Shown here: positions 10,772 to 16,915 of the stretch, piece by piece
Position numbering within the stretch: the stretch's first letter is position 1
Layout of the letters: every line of letters starts with the position of its first letter
Source: Rhodobium orientis
GTDB lineage: Bacteria > Pseudomonadota > Alphaproteobacteria > Rhizobiales > Rhodobiaceae
Assembly (NCBI RefSeq): GCF_003258835.1
Contig: NZ_NPEV01000006.1
Coordinates: forward strand, 51,250 to 115,249
Length of the DNA: 64,000 nucleotides
Reading direction: 5' to 3'
Notes under the pieces: model-generated
Told to the model about the DNA's origin: nothing
The model's input: the letters and a program-made list of their open reading frames with translations, nothing else
Databases searched by the model: none
Made by a program: the position numbers and the translations under genes

Positions 10772-10802
10772 AAAAACCCGGCCGCTGGGGTGCGGCCGGG
10801 TT
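10772..10802 (-). terminator. Rho-independent terminator after the 401-aa secreted protein gene
   Basis: An 11-bp perfect stem (AACCCGGCCGC / GCGGCCGGGTT) with a 6-nt loop is followed, on the leftward strand, by a run of T. It lies 22 bp beyond the stop of the leftward gene. Confidence 0.88.
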
Positions 10803-10824
10803 CGCTCGTCGGATGTCGAAGACG

Positions 10825-12030
10825 TCAGCGGGCGGTCGAACCGTCGTCCTCGGGCTCCTCGCCGGCGTCGGGTTCCTCCCCTGCCGGCTCGTCGCCATAG
10901 GCGTTCTCGTCCCCGTAGCCGCTCTCGTCTTCGCCGTTATGGCTGGCGCCGAGGCCCTTGCCGCGTTCCTCGTCGTCGCCGGCCGTCAGGCAGTTGTAGT
11001 AGGCGGTGCGGTCGAGGTTCGGGTCGATGCAGCGGTAGAAGCTGTCAAGCTGGTTGAGCCGGTAGTAGTTGATATAGGGATTGACCAGGAAGCGGCCGTC
11101 CTGGCCGATGAAGACGCCGTGGTCGTCGATCTCATCCTTCAGCGAGGGATGCTTTTGAAGGATCGCGGCCTTGAACTCGCCGTGGCGCATGAAGTTGTCG
11201 GGCAACTGGTCGAACGGGCCGTCGAAATAGTTGTTGGCCTCGACATTGACGCGGTTGACGCCGATCAGGAGCTTGCGGTCCTGGCGGCGGTCGTCGAAGA
11301 AGACGAAGCCGGTGCGCATGCCGACGAGGATGACCGGCGTGTCCTCCGAATAGGGCACCAGGATGTCGGACGGCGTGCCCTCCTCGTTGAGGACGAAGCG
11401 GAACTGCTTCAGCTCGCGGTCGAAGAGGAAATAGAACTCCACGCCCGACTCATCAAAGACGGGGCCGAGATAGTCCTCCTGGGGCGCGACGCGGGCCGCC
11501 GGCGGCTCGACGCCGGTCAGGTCGTTGAGCTGGAACTCGACGGAGATGTCCTTGTAGGTGACGCGGTAGAGGAAGTCGTCGACCTTCTCCACCTTGACCC
11601 CGTCCTCGGCGTTCAAAGCCTTGTACTGGGAGAGGATCTCCATGTTCCAGGGCTCGGTCTTGGAGAAATAGGCGAAATGCAGCACGCCGTCGTCGCGGTC
11701 GCCGACGTCGAGGCGCATGTTGCCGGCATATTCCATGCCGCTGTGCTTGAAGGTGAAATAGAAATAATTCTCGGTCGGATAGACCTTCACCTTCGGCGGC
11801 AGGGCGCGCAGCAGGAACTCGAAGGTCTCCATGCGGTCTTCGACGTTGAAGGAGCGCGCGGCCCGGGCCCCGGCGACGAAATTCTGGTTGAGCGAGATGC
11901 CGGGCACGGTCACCACCGCCTTTTCTTCGGCGGACGCCGGCCAAGCCGCGAGCGCACCGAGCGCCGCGGCCACGGCCAGGTATCGCAACCGGCGGGCACC
12001 GCGGGTCGACTGGGGAATATGCTTTTGCAT
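10825..12030 (-). CDS. Secreted protein of unknown function with acidic tail, 401 aa
   Basis: I do not recognise this family. The start at 12030 has an AGAAGGAG ribosome site. The N-terminus is a signal peptide with a twin-Arg-rich n-region (TRGARRLRYLAVAAALGALA), cleavage expected after residue 34 (ASA|EE). Residues 35 to about 345 look like a compact, beta-rich domain with many aromatic residues (YFYFTFKHSGMEYAGN). From about residue 350 the chain becomes strongly acidic and Gly-rich (ESGYGDENAYGDEPAGEEPD), probably disordered. It lies downstream of, and on the same strand as, the giant basic repeat protein, but a hairpin separates them, so co-transcription is uncertain. The 308-bp gap upstream holds no other gene. 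Confidence 0.75.
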   Translation of the reverse strand: MQKHIPQSTRGARRLRYLAVAAALGALAAWPASAEEKAVVTVPGISLNQNFVAGARAARSFNVEDRMETFEFLLRALPPKVKVYPTENYFYFTFKHSGMEYAGNMRLDVGDRDDGVLHFAYFSKTEPWNMEILSQYKALNAEDGVKVEKVDDFLYRVTYKDISVEFQLNDLTGVEPPAARVAPQEDYLGPVFDESGVEFYFLFDRELKQFRFVLNEEGTPSDILVPYSEDTPVILVGMRTGFVFFDDRRQDRKLLIGVNRVNVEANNYFDGPFDQLPDNFMRHGEFKAAILQKHPSLKDEIDDHGVFIGQDGRFLVNPYINYYRLNQLDSFYRCIDPNLDRTAYYNCLTAGDDEERGKGLGASHNGEDESGYGDENAYGDEPAGEEPDAGEEPEDDGSTAR

Positions 12031-12284
12031 CTTTTTGGCTGCTCCTTCTGGACGGGTTTGGGCGGGGCGGACCGCGCCGGCGAGGCCGGCGGGCGCCGGA
12101 CCGCTTTCCGGGGGTTACGACCCCGATGTAGGACGCCTCGTTCCGCTCCGGTGTGATCCACGCCACACAAGCCGGCTTTGTCGATGCCGCGGGCGGCGAC
12201 GGGCGATGTTGGCGTTGGAAGGTGGCGATCACGCGGCGGCCGGAAAGCCATTGGCCGGGCCGTTCCGCATCGGCAGGTGCCGGG

Positions 12285-12318
12285 AAAAGCGCGGCGGACG
12301 AAATGCTCGCCCGCCGCG
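12285..12318 (-). terminator. Probable terminator downstream of the giant repeat protein
   Basis: CGCGGCGG / CCGCCGCG forms an 8-bp stem with a 13-nt loop; on the leftward strand it is followed by GC and then only four T. It lies 20 bp past the stop codon of the giant gene. The short U-tract makes partial read-through into the acidic-tail gene possible. Confidence 0.5.
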
Positions 12319-12338
12319 TTGTCTTTTCTGCAGCGTCA

Positions 12339-15300
12339 TCAGTTGCGCTGGCTGCGCCGTTGATTGTGCTGACGCCGCCGCTGTTGCTGCTGGCGTTGCC
12401 GCTGTTGGCGCGCCCGCTGCTGCTGCTGGCGTTGCCGTTGCTGCCGTGCCCGCTGCTGCTGCTGGCGCTGACGTTGCTGCCGTGCCCGCTGCTGCTGCTG
12501 GCGTTGCCGCTGTTGCCGTGCCCGCTGCTGCTGCTGGCGTTGCCGTTGCTGGCGTGCCCGCTGCTGCTGCTGGCGTTGCCGCTGCTGGCGCGCCCGCTGT
12601 TGCTGCTGACGTTGCCGTTGCTGGCGTGCCCGCTGCTGCTGCTGGCGTTGCCGCTGCTGCTGGCGCGTCCGCTGCTGCTGCTGACGTTGCCGCTGCTGCT
12701 GGCGGGTGCGCTGTTGCTGGCGCTGCCTTTGCTGCTGGCGGGCACGCTGCCTTTGCTGCTGACGTTGCCGTTGATTCACATTGGCATCGTCCCGGCGCCG
12801 CGACCGGTTCGCATTGTGCCGCTGGTTCTGTTGACGCGTCCCATCGCGGCGGCGCGAGCGGTTGACGTTGTGACGCTGGTTCTGCTGGCGCGCGCCGTCA
12901 CGGCGGCGCGAACGGTTGACGTTGTGGCGCTGGTTCTGCTGGCGCGCCCCGTCACGGCGACGCGAGCGGTTGGCGTTGTGCTGCCCTCCGTCCCGGCGCC
13001 GTGACCGGTTCACGTTGTGACGCTGGTTCTGCTGGCCGGCACCGTCGCGGCGGCGCGAGCGGTTGACGTTGTGCTGGCCGTCCCTGCGCCGGGAGCGGTT
13101 CACATTGTGCCCGTCGCGCCGGCGGGACCGATTGACGTTATGCCGCTGGTTCTGGCGACGGGAGCGGTTGGCGTTGTGCTGCCCACCGTCCCGGCGCCGT
13201 GACCGGTTCACATTGTGCTGGCCGTCGCGGCGACGCGACTGGTTCACGTTGTGCCGCTGGTTCTGGCGGCGCGAGCGGTTGGCGTTGTGCCGCTGGTCTT
13301 GGCGGCGCGAGCGGTTCACCGTGTGGCGTCCGTCGCGTCCCCGCGACCGCCGCACATTGTGCTGCTGGTTCTGCCGACGCGAGCGCCGCACATTGTGGCC
13401 CGGCCTGATGCCATTGCGGGAGACGCGCGGACGGTGCCCGCCACGCCAGACCGAGCGGCGCCTGTTATGGCCCTGGGACTGGAACCGGCGATGGAACCGC
13501 GAGCGACCGGCGCCGTGGATCGGCCGGCCGATGGAGCGGCCCCTCGCGTGGTAGATCGAGCGGTAGTTGCGGTGGAACCGCGACGGACCGCGCAGATGTC
13601 CCGGCCTGCCGGTGGAGGTGCGCCAGTTGTGCCAGTGCGACCGGCGTCCGCCATGGAAGGTGGAGACGCGCGGGCCGTGGCCCGGACGCACGACCGAGTT
13701 CCAGCGATTGTGCCAGCCGGATTCCCAGCGCCGGTGCAGGCGCGAGATACGGCGCCAGTGGCCCGGGCCAAGCCGTGTCAGGTTGCGGTCGTGGAGACCC
13801 GAGCGATAGGCGAAGTGGAAGGCGGAAATCCCCGGATTGTGGATGCCCACGGCGTCCGTGAAGATGCCGTCATGGCGCCTCGACCGGAAGTCCTCGTGGA
13901 ACCGCGACAGGGCGCGCCGGTGGATCGGCACCAGCCGGGTGACGATGCCGTCGTGGCGGTCGGAATCCCAGCGCCGGTGGAACCGCGAGAAGCCGCGATC
14001 GTGCTCGTCGACCGGATCGGTGGTGACGCGGTCATGCTGGACGGAGCGGAACTCCTCGTGGAACGAGGACAGCGCTTCGTCATGCACCGGAATGAATCGG
14101 GTGATGCGTCCGTCATGGGAAGCGGAGCGGAACCGGCGATGGAACCGCGACAGCCCCCGGCGATGCCACGGGATCGGCGCCGTCGTGGTGCCGTCGTGGC
14201 GGATCGAGCGGAAGCGGCGGTGGAAGTTCGACAGGGCCGGTTCGTGGGTGTCGATGAACTCCGTGTCGGCCTGGTCGTGGCGCTCGGAGACGAAGCGGCG
14301 ATGGAAGGCGGACAGGGCGCGCCAGTGATCGGTCGGCGTCTCGCCCGGAATGGTGACGCGGTGGCAATCGCGGTCGTTGACCGGATTCTCGTCGCCGTCG
14401 AAGCCGGAAACGGAGCCGAACAGGGCTTCGAGCAGCTCGTCGGTGATCTCGCTGTCGACCGGCAGCCCGAGTTCCTGCTTGACCGCCTCGATGGCGGCGT
14501 TGGTCTCCGGGCCGTAGATGCCGTCGATGGACGAGATGTCCTGGCCGCGGTCGCGCAGCGCGCGCTGCAGGAAGCGGATGCGGGTCCGGTATTCGCGGCC
14601 GAGCCAGCCGACCTCGATGCAGTTGAGCAGAGAGCGTGCCGGCGGTTCGGGCGGAAGGTCGATGGCGATTTCGAGGGTTATGCTCTCGCTGACCGCGAGG
14701 GTGATGTCCGGCGCGTCGCAGAAGATCATGCCGTCGATCTTCTCGCAGGTCCACGGCTCGCCGACGTCGCCGGCCAGGCTGACGGAGGACAGCGACAGCT
14801 CGTCATAGAGGAAGAGCGGGCCCTGGAACGGGCCGGAGCCGGAATTGGTGATGGTCACCTGGAAGCCGCAGCCCTCGCCGGGCAGGCATTCGACGGGACC
14901 GGTCTTGGAGATGGCGAGGTCGAATTCGGTCGACTCGTCGCCCTCCGGAATTTCCGGATCGCGCGGCAGGCTGTCGTCGTAGGCGATCTCCTCTTCCGTC
15001 TCGCCGCCGCCGACGACGACTTCGACGTCACCGGGATGGGAAACGCGGAAGGCGGCGCGCTGGGGCGGTTCGTCGGCAAGGTTGCCGGGCACGATATAGG
15101 CCGAGTCGACGCCGTCCGGCGGCGTCGCCGTCGCGCCCTCCGCCGGCGCGTTCAACGCCTCGGGGGCCAGGATTTCCGTGCCGCCGTCGACGGGCACGCC
15201 CTGCAGGCCGTCGACCTCGTCGCTCTCGTCGCCGGAGCACGGACCATCGGGCGAGCAGAGATTGTCGCCGGTCGCCCAGACGAAGGCATCGGGCGCTTCC

Positions 15301-16679
15301 GGGTCGAGCTCGCCGGCATCGGTGTAGCCGAAGCCGAAGGCAACGCCGCCATTGGCGTTGGCGCGGATGAAGGGAGGACCGTCGTCCTCACCGCGTTCTG
15401 TGTTGCCCACATTGTAGCGGGCGTCCGGCTGCCAGATGCCGTCGTCGTCGCGCAGGTAGCGCAGCACGCGGGACATCTTCGGCGCGGCATAGAGTCCGGC
15501 ACCGGCGCCGTCCGGAACGAGGCCACCGCGCTCGGCGACCAGCATGACGCCGTCGCGGGAAATCGCGATATCGGTCGGCGCGCCGTTCGGCTTCTGGGCC
15601 GCCGGATCCGGGTCGTTCCCGCCCTCCCCTGCGGTGTCGCCGTCTTCGCCGGCAGGACGGCGCTCGCTGGCGAAGAAGTTCGGCAACACGAATTCGCGGC
15701 GGATGTCCTCGACGTCGAAGTCGCCGGAGGCGGAAATGCCGATCGACCAGACCGTGTTCCTGGAATCCTCGCCGGCCTCGGCCCAGGTCTCGTCGCCGAG
15801 CGGGTCGGCGCCCCAGACCGTATAGAAGAGCCGCGAACGGCCGGAGCGCTCGTCGCGGTCGACGGCAAGGCCGTAGACCCGGCGCCGGTAGTCGGCAACG
15901 TTCCAGCAGGCCGGCGTGACGGCCGCATCGGCCCTGGCGCCGTCCGGCGTCTGGCAGTTGTCGAGCTGGGCCTGGGTCTCGGGATCGAATTCCACGACCG
16001 GCAGCACGTGGTAGTCGCCCGAGGCAACGTCGAGGAAATAGGAGCGGCCGTCGACGCCGTGGTCGAAGGTGCCTGCGATGTCGCCGCTCTCGGTCGAGAC
16101 GCGATGGATCAGGCCCGATTCCAGGTCGGTGACGAAAAGCTGCTTGTGGGCGGCGTCATAGGCGAGATTGCCGAGCGCGGCGCCGGTGTTGTAGCGGTCG
16201 TTCGGGGCGATTTCGGTAAAGGCTTCGGGGATATAGTCGTTTTCCGGCGAGATCCGGTAGATCGTGCCGGCCGCGCCCTGCGGGCCCCACTGGCCATCGA
16301 GCCAGGAGCCGTCGGATTTCAAATGCAGGCCGAAGGCGGAGGTGGCGCCGACATAGATGGTCGGCTGGGCGCCGTCGTCGATGGCGATGCCGAAAACCTG
16401 GCCGACATCGAGGGCCCGGGCAAGGATCGAGGTGGGGGCGTCGCGCCAGACCTGGCCGGTCGGCGGCTGGCCGGGCGAGCGCACGTTGATGAGTTCGACG
16501 GTGGTGCCGCCGGCGTCGATCGCCGGTCCCTCGCCGCCATTTTCCAGACCCGAGAACCGTGTCACCACGGCATCACCGGTGGACAGACGGGTTTCCTGCG
16601 CGGAGGCATTCGTCGACGCGAACGCAATCCACACCACTGCCGCAGCCGCGGCTGCCTTGACGGCATGCAACTTGGTCAT
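12339..16679 (-). CDS. Giant secreted repeat protein: propeller-like domain, DUF11-like and peptidoglycan-binding-like domains, His-rich repeats, Arg/Gln tail (1446 aa)
   Basis: The start at 16679 begins a clear signal peptide (MTKLHAVKAAAAAAVVWIAF, cleavage after residue 27, ASA|QE). Residues about 30-520 have the Gly/Asp-rich, WxxD-type pattern of a secreted beta-propeller-like domain. Residues about 580-690 resemble a DUF11-type beta domain (ISKTGPVECLPGEGCGFQVT). Residues about 690-760 match a peptidoglycan_binding_1 helix bundle (FLQRALRDRGQDISSIDGIY). Residues 785-1081 are eleven tandem repeats of exactly 27 residues with His at positions 1, usually 9, and 17. Then follow RSRRRDG/HNVN repeats (1082 to about 1300) and a Gln/Arg tail of 12-13-residue units (about 1303-1433). 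The mature protein is very basic at its C-terminus. Function unknown; a cell-envelope or matrix role is only inference. Confidence 0.8.
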   Translation of the reverse strand: MTKLHAVKAAAAAAVVWIAFASTNASAQETRLSTGDAVVTRFSGLENGGEGPAIDAGGTTVELINVRSPGQPPTGQVWRDAPTSILARALDVGQVFGIAIDDGAQPTIYVGATSAFGLHLKSDGSWLDGQWGPQGAAGTIYRISPENDYIPEAFTEIAPNDRYNTGAALGNLAYDAAHKQLFVTDLESGLIHRVSTESGDIAGTFDHGVDGRSYFLDVASGDYHVLPVVEFDPETQAQLDNCQTPDGARADAAVTPACWNVADYRRRVYGLAVDRDERSGRSRLFYTVWGADPLGDETWAEAGEDSRNTVWSIGISASGDFDVEDIRREFVLPNFFASERRPAGEDGDTAGEGGNDPDPAAQKPNGAPTDIAISRDGVMLVAERGGLVPDGAGAGLYAAPKMSRVLRYLRDDDGIWQPDARYNVGNTERGEDDGPPFIRANANGGVAFGFGYTDAGELDPEAPDAFVWATGDNLCSPDGPCSGDESDEVDGLQGVPVDGGTEILAPEALNAPAEGATATPPDGVDSAYIVPGNLADEPPQRAAFRVSHPGDVEVVVGGGETEEEIAYDDSLPRDPEIPEGDESTEFDLAISKTGPVECLPGEGCGFQVTITNSGSGPFQGPLFLYDELSLSSVSLAGDVGEPWTCEKIDGMIFCDAPDITLAVSESITLEIAIDLPPEPPARSLLNCIEVGWLGREYRTRIRFLQRALRDRGQDISSIDGIYGPETNAAIEAVKQELGLPVDSEITDELLEALFGSVSGFDGDENPVNDRDCHRVTIPGETPTDHWRALSAFHRRFVSERHDQADTEFIDTHEPALSNFHRRFRSIRHDGTTTAPIPWHRRGLSRFHRRFRSASHDGRITRFIPVHDEALSSFHEEFRSVQHDRVTTDPVDEHDRGFSRFHRRWDSDRHDGIVTRLVPIHRRALSRFHEDFRSRRHDGIFTDAVGIHNPGISAFHFAYRSGLHDRNLTRLGPGHWRRISRLHRRWESGWHNRWNSVVRPGHGPRVSTFHGGRRSHWHNWRTSTGRPGHLRGPSRFHRNYRSIYHARGRSIGRPIHGAGRSRFHRRFQSQGHNRRRSVWRGGHRPRVSRNGIRPGHNVRRSRRQNQQHNVRRSRGRDGRHTVNRSRRQDQRHNANRSRRQNQRHNVNQSRRRDGQHNVNRSRRRDGGQHNANRSRRQNQRHNVNRSRRRDGHNVNRSRRRDGQHNVNRSRRRDGAGQQNQRHNVNRSRRRDGGQHNANRSRRRDGARQQNQRHNVNRSRRRDGARQQNQRHNVNRSRRRDGTRQQNQRHNANRSRRRDDANVNQRQRQQQRQRARQQQRQRQQQRTRQQQRQRQQQQRTRQQQRQRQQQQRARQQRQRQQQQRARQQRQRQQQQRARQQRQRQQQQRARQQRQRQQQQRARQQRQRQQQQRARQQRQRQQQQRARQQRQRQQQQRRRQHNQRRSQRN
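12381..12617 (-). repeat. 36-bp tandem repeat array inside the giant gene
   Basis: About six and a half near-identical 36-bp units encode the 12-residue repeat RQRQQQQRARQQ. Slightly longer 39-bp variants (RQRQQQQRTRQQQ) continue up to about 12770. The array is in frame and contiguous with no spacers. Such arrays can change copy number by slippage without breaking the reading frame. Confidence 0.85.
13437..14327 (-). repeat. Eleven tandem 81-bp repeats encoding 27-residue His-rich units
   Basis: Eleven consecutive units, each exactly 27 codons, run from HWRALSAFHRRFVSERHD to HGAGRSRFHRRFQSQGHN. The consensus is H-x4-S-x-F-H-R-R-F-x-S-x-x-H-D/N. Positions 1, 9 and 17 carry His in nearly every unit, giving a H-x7-H-x7-H spacing. 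The units diverge in DNA sequence, so this is an old array that keeps its length strictly. Confidence 0.9.
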
Positions 16680-16886
16680 TTTTCGGACGCTTCTTTCCCG
16701 ACTGATTGTGATTGGGTCCGCGAAACGGGATCGATTTGGGGGATTGCGGCGGCGTGGCGATCCGCGGCGTGCAAACAAAGCCCGGAATCGGCTCGTGACG
16801 GCTACACGATGCACCGACATGCATGTTCCCCGTAGCGGCTTCCGTCCCTCAAGCGAGGTCGAAAGCAAGCTCCCCATCCGGCGGGC

Positions 16887-16915
16887 ACTATAGACAGCCG
16901 ACACCGTATTCACAA
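16887..16915 (-). promoter_or_regulatory. Sigma-70-like promoter of the giant repeat protein gene
   Basis: Read leftward, TTGTGA (16915-16910) and TATAGT (16892-16887) are separated by 17 bp, a good match to the housekeeping consensus. Transcription would start near 16880, leaving a leader of about 200 nt before the ATG at 16679. The whole 16680-17033 interval holds no other gene; it also contains a 10-bp palindrome ACATGCATGT at 16817-16826. Confidence 0.55.

Follow-up and report, generated by a model that had tools for sequence, protein, structure and literature searches.

A repeated H-x4-[ST] motif in secreted proteins of Hyphomicrobiales (Rhizobiales), encoded beside a gene for a secreted partner

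One gene in the window (the whole 64,000-nucleotide stretch of Rhodobium orientis DNA that was analysed) encodes a large protein ending in His-rich, basic repeats, which raises the question of what in these repeats is conserved and with what they act. The initial annotation described eleven units of exactly 27 residues, each normally with His at positions 1, 9 and 17, and took the strict length as selection on spacing. The gene, referred to here as the carrier gene, and its parts were as follows.

16887 to 16915, minus strand: promoter-like site upstream of the carrier gene (9/12 positions match; consensus match only)
12339 to 16679, minus strand: carrier gene, 1446 aa, with signal peptide, propeller, DUF11-like domain, PG_binding_1, H-x4-[ST] array and Gln/Arg tail
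16599 to 16679, minus strand: signal-peptide-like start, residues 1 to 27 (MTKLHAVKAAAAAAVVWIAFASTNASA), judged from composition
15000 to 16598, minus strand: predicted six-bladed beta-propeller head, residues 28 to 560 (AF2, mostly pLDDT 80 to 97)
14610 to 14921, minus strand: DUF11-like Ig domain, approximately residues 587 to 690 (confident beta domain in AF2)
14421 to 14582, minus strand: PG_binding_1 (PF01471) domain, residues 700 to 753 (Pfam, 38 bits; cut-off, 23)
13437 to 14327, minus strand: eleven 27-residue units, residues 785 to 1081, with three H-x4-[ST] sites each and linkers of 2, 2 and 5
12780 to 13436, minus strand: Arg-rich segment, residues 1082 to 1300, with H-x4-[ST] in units of about 12 residues (HNVNRSRRRDGQ)
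12342 to 12779, minus strand: Gln/Arg tail, residues 1301 to 1446, closing with one more site, HNQRRS at 1438

The minus-strand frame (12339 to 16679) is the coding frame, as shown by its codon-position GC (GC3 of 0.86 to 0.93 across residues 1 to 1300) and an array dN/dS of 0.08, measured between the carrier gene and that of one congener. Strong purifying selection on the array follows from this ratio; none of the 34 His and 33 Ser/Thr of the motif showed a nonsynonymous difference between the two species, and synonymous differences numbered 6 and 7, respectively. A plus-strand open reading frame (13215 to 16835, 1,206 aa) was rejected as a gene and regarded as an antisense shadow of the carrier's high GC3. 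The repeats clearly arise by tandem duplication, as they would if the motif were a functionless mutational by-product of one ancestral minigene, but such a relic is extremely improbable given this dN/dS, the unrelated carriers that share the motif and the pairing with a partner gene described below.

For the region ahead of the repeats, an AF2 model spanning residues 28 to 1090 gave a confident head, Ig-like domain and peptidoglycan-binding domain. The array, for which structure prediction had been proposed, came out at a pLDDT of about 30 to 40 with no confident fold, which, given the shallow alignment, is weak evidence of disorder. The modelled head has the fold of a six-bladed beta-propeller, with the predicted structure matching nidogen 1npe (VIA Z, 25.6; rmsd, 2.6; 261/263 residues of 1npe) and DFPase (VIA Z, ~21), and a profile search of the head against the PDB gave a weak DFPase match (E, 3e-4). 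Its fold is thus like that of YWTD/NHL/SMP-30-DFPase-like propellers (VIA Z, ~21 to 26), but a Pfam search for DFPase/SMP-30 membership gave no match to the window head, no enzyme family scored above its curated cut-off, and the tail system is unrelated to these proteins. The only Pfam family above cut-off in the whole carrier was PG_binding_1. DUF11 (PF01345) scored 12.8 bits against a gathering threshold of 24.6 (E, 0.15), below cut-off, and the modelled Ig-like domain resembled a fibrillar-adhesin domain, 9ifr (Foldseek E, 2.2e-7; target-normalised TM, 0.68); given the subthreshold score and the predicted Ig-like fold, the domain is termed DUF11-like only. The upstream architecture given in the initial annotation therefore held for the signal-peptide-like start, the propeller and PG_binding_1, with the DUF11-like domain weak by sequence and Ig-like by structure match. 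Fibrillar adhesins (DUF11/Ig-like stalks, peptidoglycan-binding anchor) share secretion, the Ig-like domain and PG_binding_1 with the carrier, which differs in its N-terminal propeller, C-terminal H-x4-S array and partner gene. With the head as query, propeller heads turned up in many Hyphomicrobiales (Rhizobiales) and also in some other Proteobacteria; a plasmid search matched the head once, in Ciceribacter thiooxidans, and the partner nowhere.

The eleven exact units were borne out, with 126 identities at lag 27 against 26.4 ± 4.6 (maximum, 44) in 2,000 composition shuffles, and His was found at unit positions 1, 9 and 17 in all 11. Across the entire tail, Ser or Thr stood exactly five residues after 50 of the 52 His (shuffles: mean, 5; maximum, 14), including Ser after 16/16 His in the Arg-rich segment. 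The Arg-rich and Gln/Arg regions, previously set apart from the array as basic repeats, are indeed basic (net charge of about +34, +58 and +49 in the three parts of the tail; array pI, 12) but not separate from it, since most of them is the same H-x4-[ST] motif. Searches of the array against Pfam, NCBIfam, PHROGs, PADLOC and PDB sequences found no family; matches to DUF5824, SNAP-25 and an E8 145-aa chain (E, 0.04) were set aside as chance effects of composition.

Motif statistics were drawn from 44 nonredundant His-type tails of propeller-head relatives. Ser or Thr occupied position +5 for 1,659 of 1,766 His (94%; other offsets, 5 to 33%), with a Ser:Thr ratio of 24:1 and K, R or P at position +2 in 72%. 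The commonest His-His distance differed between tails (6, 7, 8, 9, 11, 13 and more), and the linkers between sites were mostly 0, 1 or 2 residues but reached dozens, as in HLKTGSP-HNKLQS, HLPIGSNPG-HLFPNSI and SWHSRDRSW. Up to about 70 copies of the motif occurred in one protein. On these sequence comparisons, the feature conserved family-wide is H-x4-[ST], and not the 27-residue period or H-x7-H. The proposed selection on spacing was not upheld: spacing is constant in the nearest relatives only, and it appears as a local case of H-x4-[ST], because Ser/Thr at +5 is kept while the His-His distance is free. A +5 rule with free linkers leads one to expect independent sites rather than a fold of fixed period.

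These statistics bear on two other readings of the tail. In one, the His bind Zn, Cu or Ni, so that the array buffers metal outside the cell or forms a matrix crosslinked by it, with the partner loading or sensing the metal; 50 His in about 650 residues with few Cys in the window tail, and 3 to 15% His in His-rich tails generally, would suit such a role, but the His-His spacing that sets metal geometry varies while Ser at +5, a poor ligand, is kept, and we regard metal binding as quite unlikely. In the other, the basic tail is an electrostatic anchor that binds acidic polysaccharide, LPS or DNA, the partner belonging to the same pathway and making no contact with the motif. The charge of all three tail parts agrees with an anchor; however, charge has no need of a +5 rule, and some tails that are hardly basic (K+R, 4 to 10%) still keep H-x4-S, and we regard the anchor as very unlikely.

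Propeller heads carry two kinds of tail, His-rich with few Cys or Cys-rich. At about 36 loci (among them L020, L022:8247-12800, L066, L080 and L084), the same propeller head bears a long tail rich in Cys, with repeats like CPKGWRKVGGKCRP, and the partner gene is absent; this is a separate tail system, the second on this head.

When the flanks of about 90 loci were compared, one neighbour stood out, a homologue of the window gene at 10825 to 12030. (Neighbour cluster 10, with 19 loci, was assumed to consist of overlapping reading frames.) The corresponding features in the window were as follows.

10825 to 12030, minus strand: partner gene, encoding a secreted, acidic (pI ~4.5) 401-aa protein, conserved beside H-x4-S genes
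11191 to 11223, minus strand: partner block DGPFDQLPDNF, residues 270 to 280, nearly all invariant in 37 sequences and located in a loop of the predicted model
12280 to 12328, minus strand: terminator- or attenuator-like hairpin between carrier and partner (-28.6 kcal/mol; z, -4.4), followed by four U
10774 to 10803, minus strand: terminator-like hairpin 3' of the partner gene

The partner was adjacent and on the same strand at 38/38 testable H-x4-S propeller loci versus 0/30 testable Cys-tail loci (Fisher p 6e-20 for tail type versus partner, uncorrected for kinship); His-type loci without a partner stop at a contig end. It lay immediately downstream of the propeller gene, with the exception of one locus where it is just upstream (L013:4099-11186), a three-gene unit of a DUF11-PG-27-mer array gene, the partner and a propeller-27-mer array gene. 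On a quick tree of the heads, the His-tail and partner labels changed five times each, and changed together; on its starred branches, only one independent contrast supports co-variation, and kinship therefore explains part of the association. Within the order, 43 of 397 genomes had a partner gene, including all 16 with a 27-mer array; a phylum-wide draw turned up no partner in any other genome.

Partner loci free of a propeller adjoined unrelated small secreted H-x4-S proteins (L167, L169, L170, L171, L173, L176 and L177), with sequences such as HWRWGSRG..., HNKWKSQ... and HYRRRSRR.... At one of these (L177; G211:C104:44684-46764), five small secreted H-x4-S genes stand in a row beside a single partner, like a substrate array. 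Control flanks totalling 564 kb held one open reading frame with at least 4 sites at at least 60%. No obvious H-x4-S neighbour was seen at 5 of the 20 partner loci examined (L166, L172, L178, L181 and L182), two of which are second copies in genomes that also have a paired copy.

A structural fibre is another way to read the pairing, with H-x4-S as a local turn or cap, the array folding into a repetitive fibre or coat polymer and the partner as its chaperone or cap. A partner found exclusively next door, the strict 27-residue period within the nearest clade and the resemblance of the Ig-like domain to a fibrillar-adhesin domain all fit. Linkers that run from 0 to dozens of residues, compositions that differ greatly family-wide and the lack of a confidently predicted array fold do not, and a rigid fibre, like metal binding, leaves the invariant Ser, the free linkers and the dedicated neighbour gene unexplained; we consider it unlikely.

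The reading that we prefer, at a probability of roughly 55%, takes the tail as a flexible series of linear sites for the partner, which would bind or modify them at the cell envelope. The sites behave as linear recognition or modification sites because they follow a two-residue rule with free linkers, occur in unrelated carriers and have one dedicated neighbour. The tail would present a single kind of linear site, H-x-[KRP]-x-x-[ST], about 50 times on a long and flexible chain outside the cytoplasm, probably tethered to the envelope by the propeller/DUF11-like/peptidoglycan-binding head. The neighbour-encoded secreted protein would have these sites as its cognate ligand or substrate; it may dock on each of them, probably via the invariant acidic DGPFDQLPDNF loop, and then either modify it, with Ser the likelier target and His serving for recognition, or join the strands into a coat on the envelope. 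The analysis shows the motif and its conservation, the strict gene pairing, the signal-peptide-like starts and the predicted folds; physical contact, modification and the envelope role are what we infer. That the partner modifies the sites rather than just binding them is a tentative suggestion. Equally tentative is a broader proposal, in which the partner family would be a new class of secreted enzyme that recognises H-x4-[ST] and modifies or cross-links proteins, and Hyphomicrobiales (Rhizobiales) would use it to build a protein coat, with repeat proteins as scaffolds and small secreted proteins as substrates.

Members of the partner family bear a signal peptide, are about 350 to 400 residues long and have two invariant Cys and an invariant DGPFDQLPD block; the DGPFDQLPDNF loop is a candidate active or binding site. 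The partner is acidic (core median pI, 4.9), which complements the basic array. The structural model of the partner was confident (pLDDT, 86.5; pTM, 0.83), but its best Foldseek match in the PDB had an E of 0.013 and a probability of 0.11, the best VIA match, to NlpE, had a Z of 4.2 (rmsd, 4.4 over 72 residues), and fold searches returned only common beta arrangements. As the fold had no confident PDB match, no mechanism is named for the partner's chemistry. Its sequence matched no family, and no kinase family, in Pfam, NCBIfam, PHROGs, PADLOC or the PDB. An open-access literature search for the motif, the architecture and the pair found no description, and the earlier statement that no such family had been described agrees with these and the database searches. 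Points against the preferred reading are the five partner loci with no obvious H-x4-S neighbour, the single independent contrast on starred branches and the hairpin between the two genes, although this hairpin may set the carrier/partner ratio by partial read-through.

Two kinds of known system come closest. CotG, a spore-coat protein, is made in the mother cell, without a signal peptide, propeller or PG_binding_1 head. In Bacillus spore coats, CotG and CotB act with the kinase CotH, which phosphorylates CotG, and CotG has short tandem repeats of 6 to 7 residues whose lengths and sequences vary between species; like the carrier, it is a basic, disordered outer-layer repeat protein with a dedicated protein (PMC9765600, PMC7821199). 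Unlike the kinase CotH, the partner matches no kinase family, and its own secretion takes it to where there is little ATP. The second kind comprises motif/processing-enzyme pairs (LPXTG-sortase, PEP-CTERM-exosortase and GlyGly-CTERM-rhombosortase), in which the processor is often encoded beside its target when there is a single target (PMC3237569, PMC1569441). As there, a short motif in unrelated carriers co-occurs with one dedicated protein (38/38 versus 0/30 loci; 16/16 array genomes). Sortase-type motifs are single and C-terminal, with a membrane helix and basic residues after them, whereas the H-x4-S motif is repeated and internal, with no C-terminal hydrophobic helix, and its partner is a soluble secreted protein. 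By analogy, the system would work most like CotG/CotH and the motif/processor pairs while belonging to neither, having no kinase match and no C-terminal helix signal.

If the preferred reading is true, about one-tenth of the sampled genomes of one order (43/397) encode an undescribed two-component envelope system, consisting of a hexapeptide code with up to about 70 copies per protein and a dedicated family of secreted partners. The pairing would then be added to a class whose other known examples come from sortases and spore-coat kinases, many repeat-rich "hypothetical" tails would become annotatable, and peptide and protein would form a directly testable pair. Elsewhere in the genome, a short HDHSHDHS run (L195; G000:C166:720-770) was seen, which is probably an ordinary His-Asp loop.
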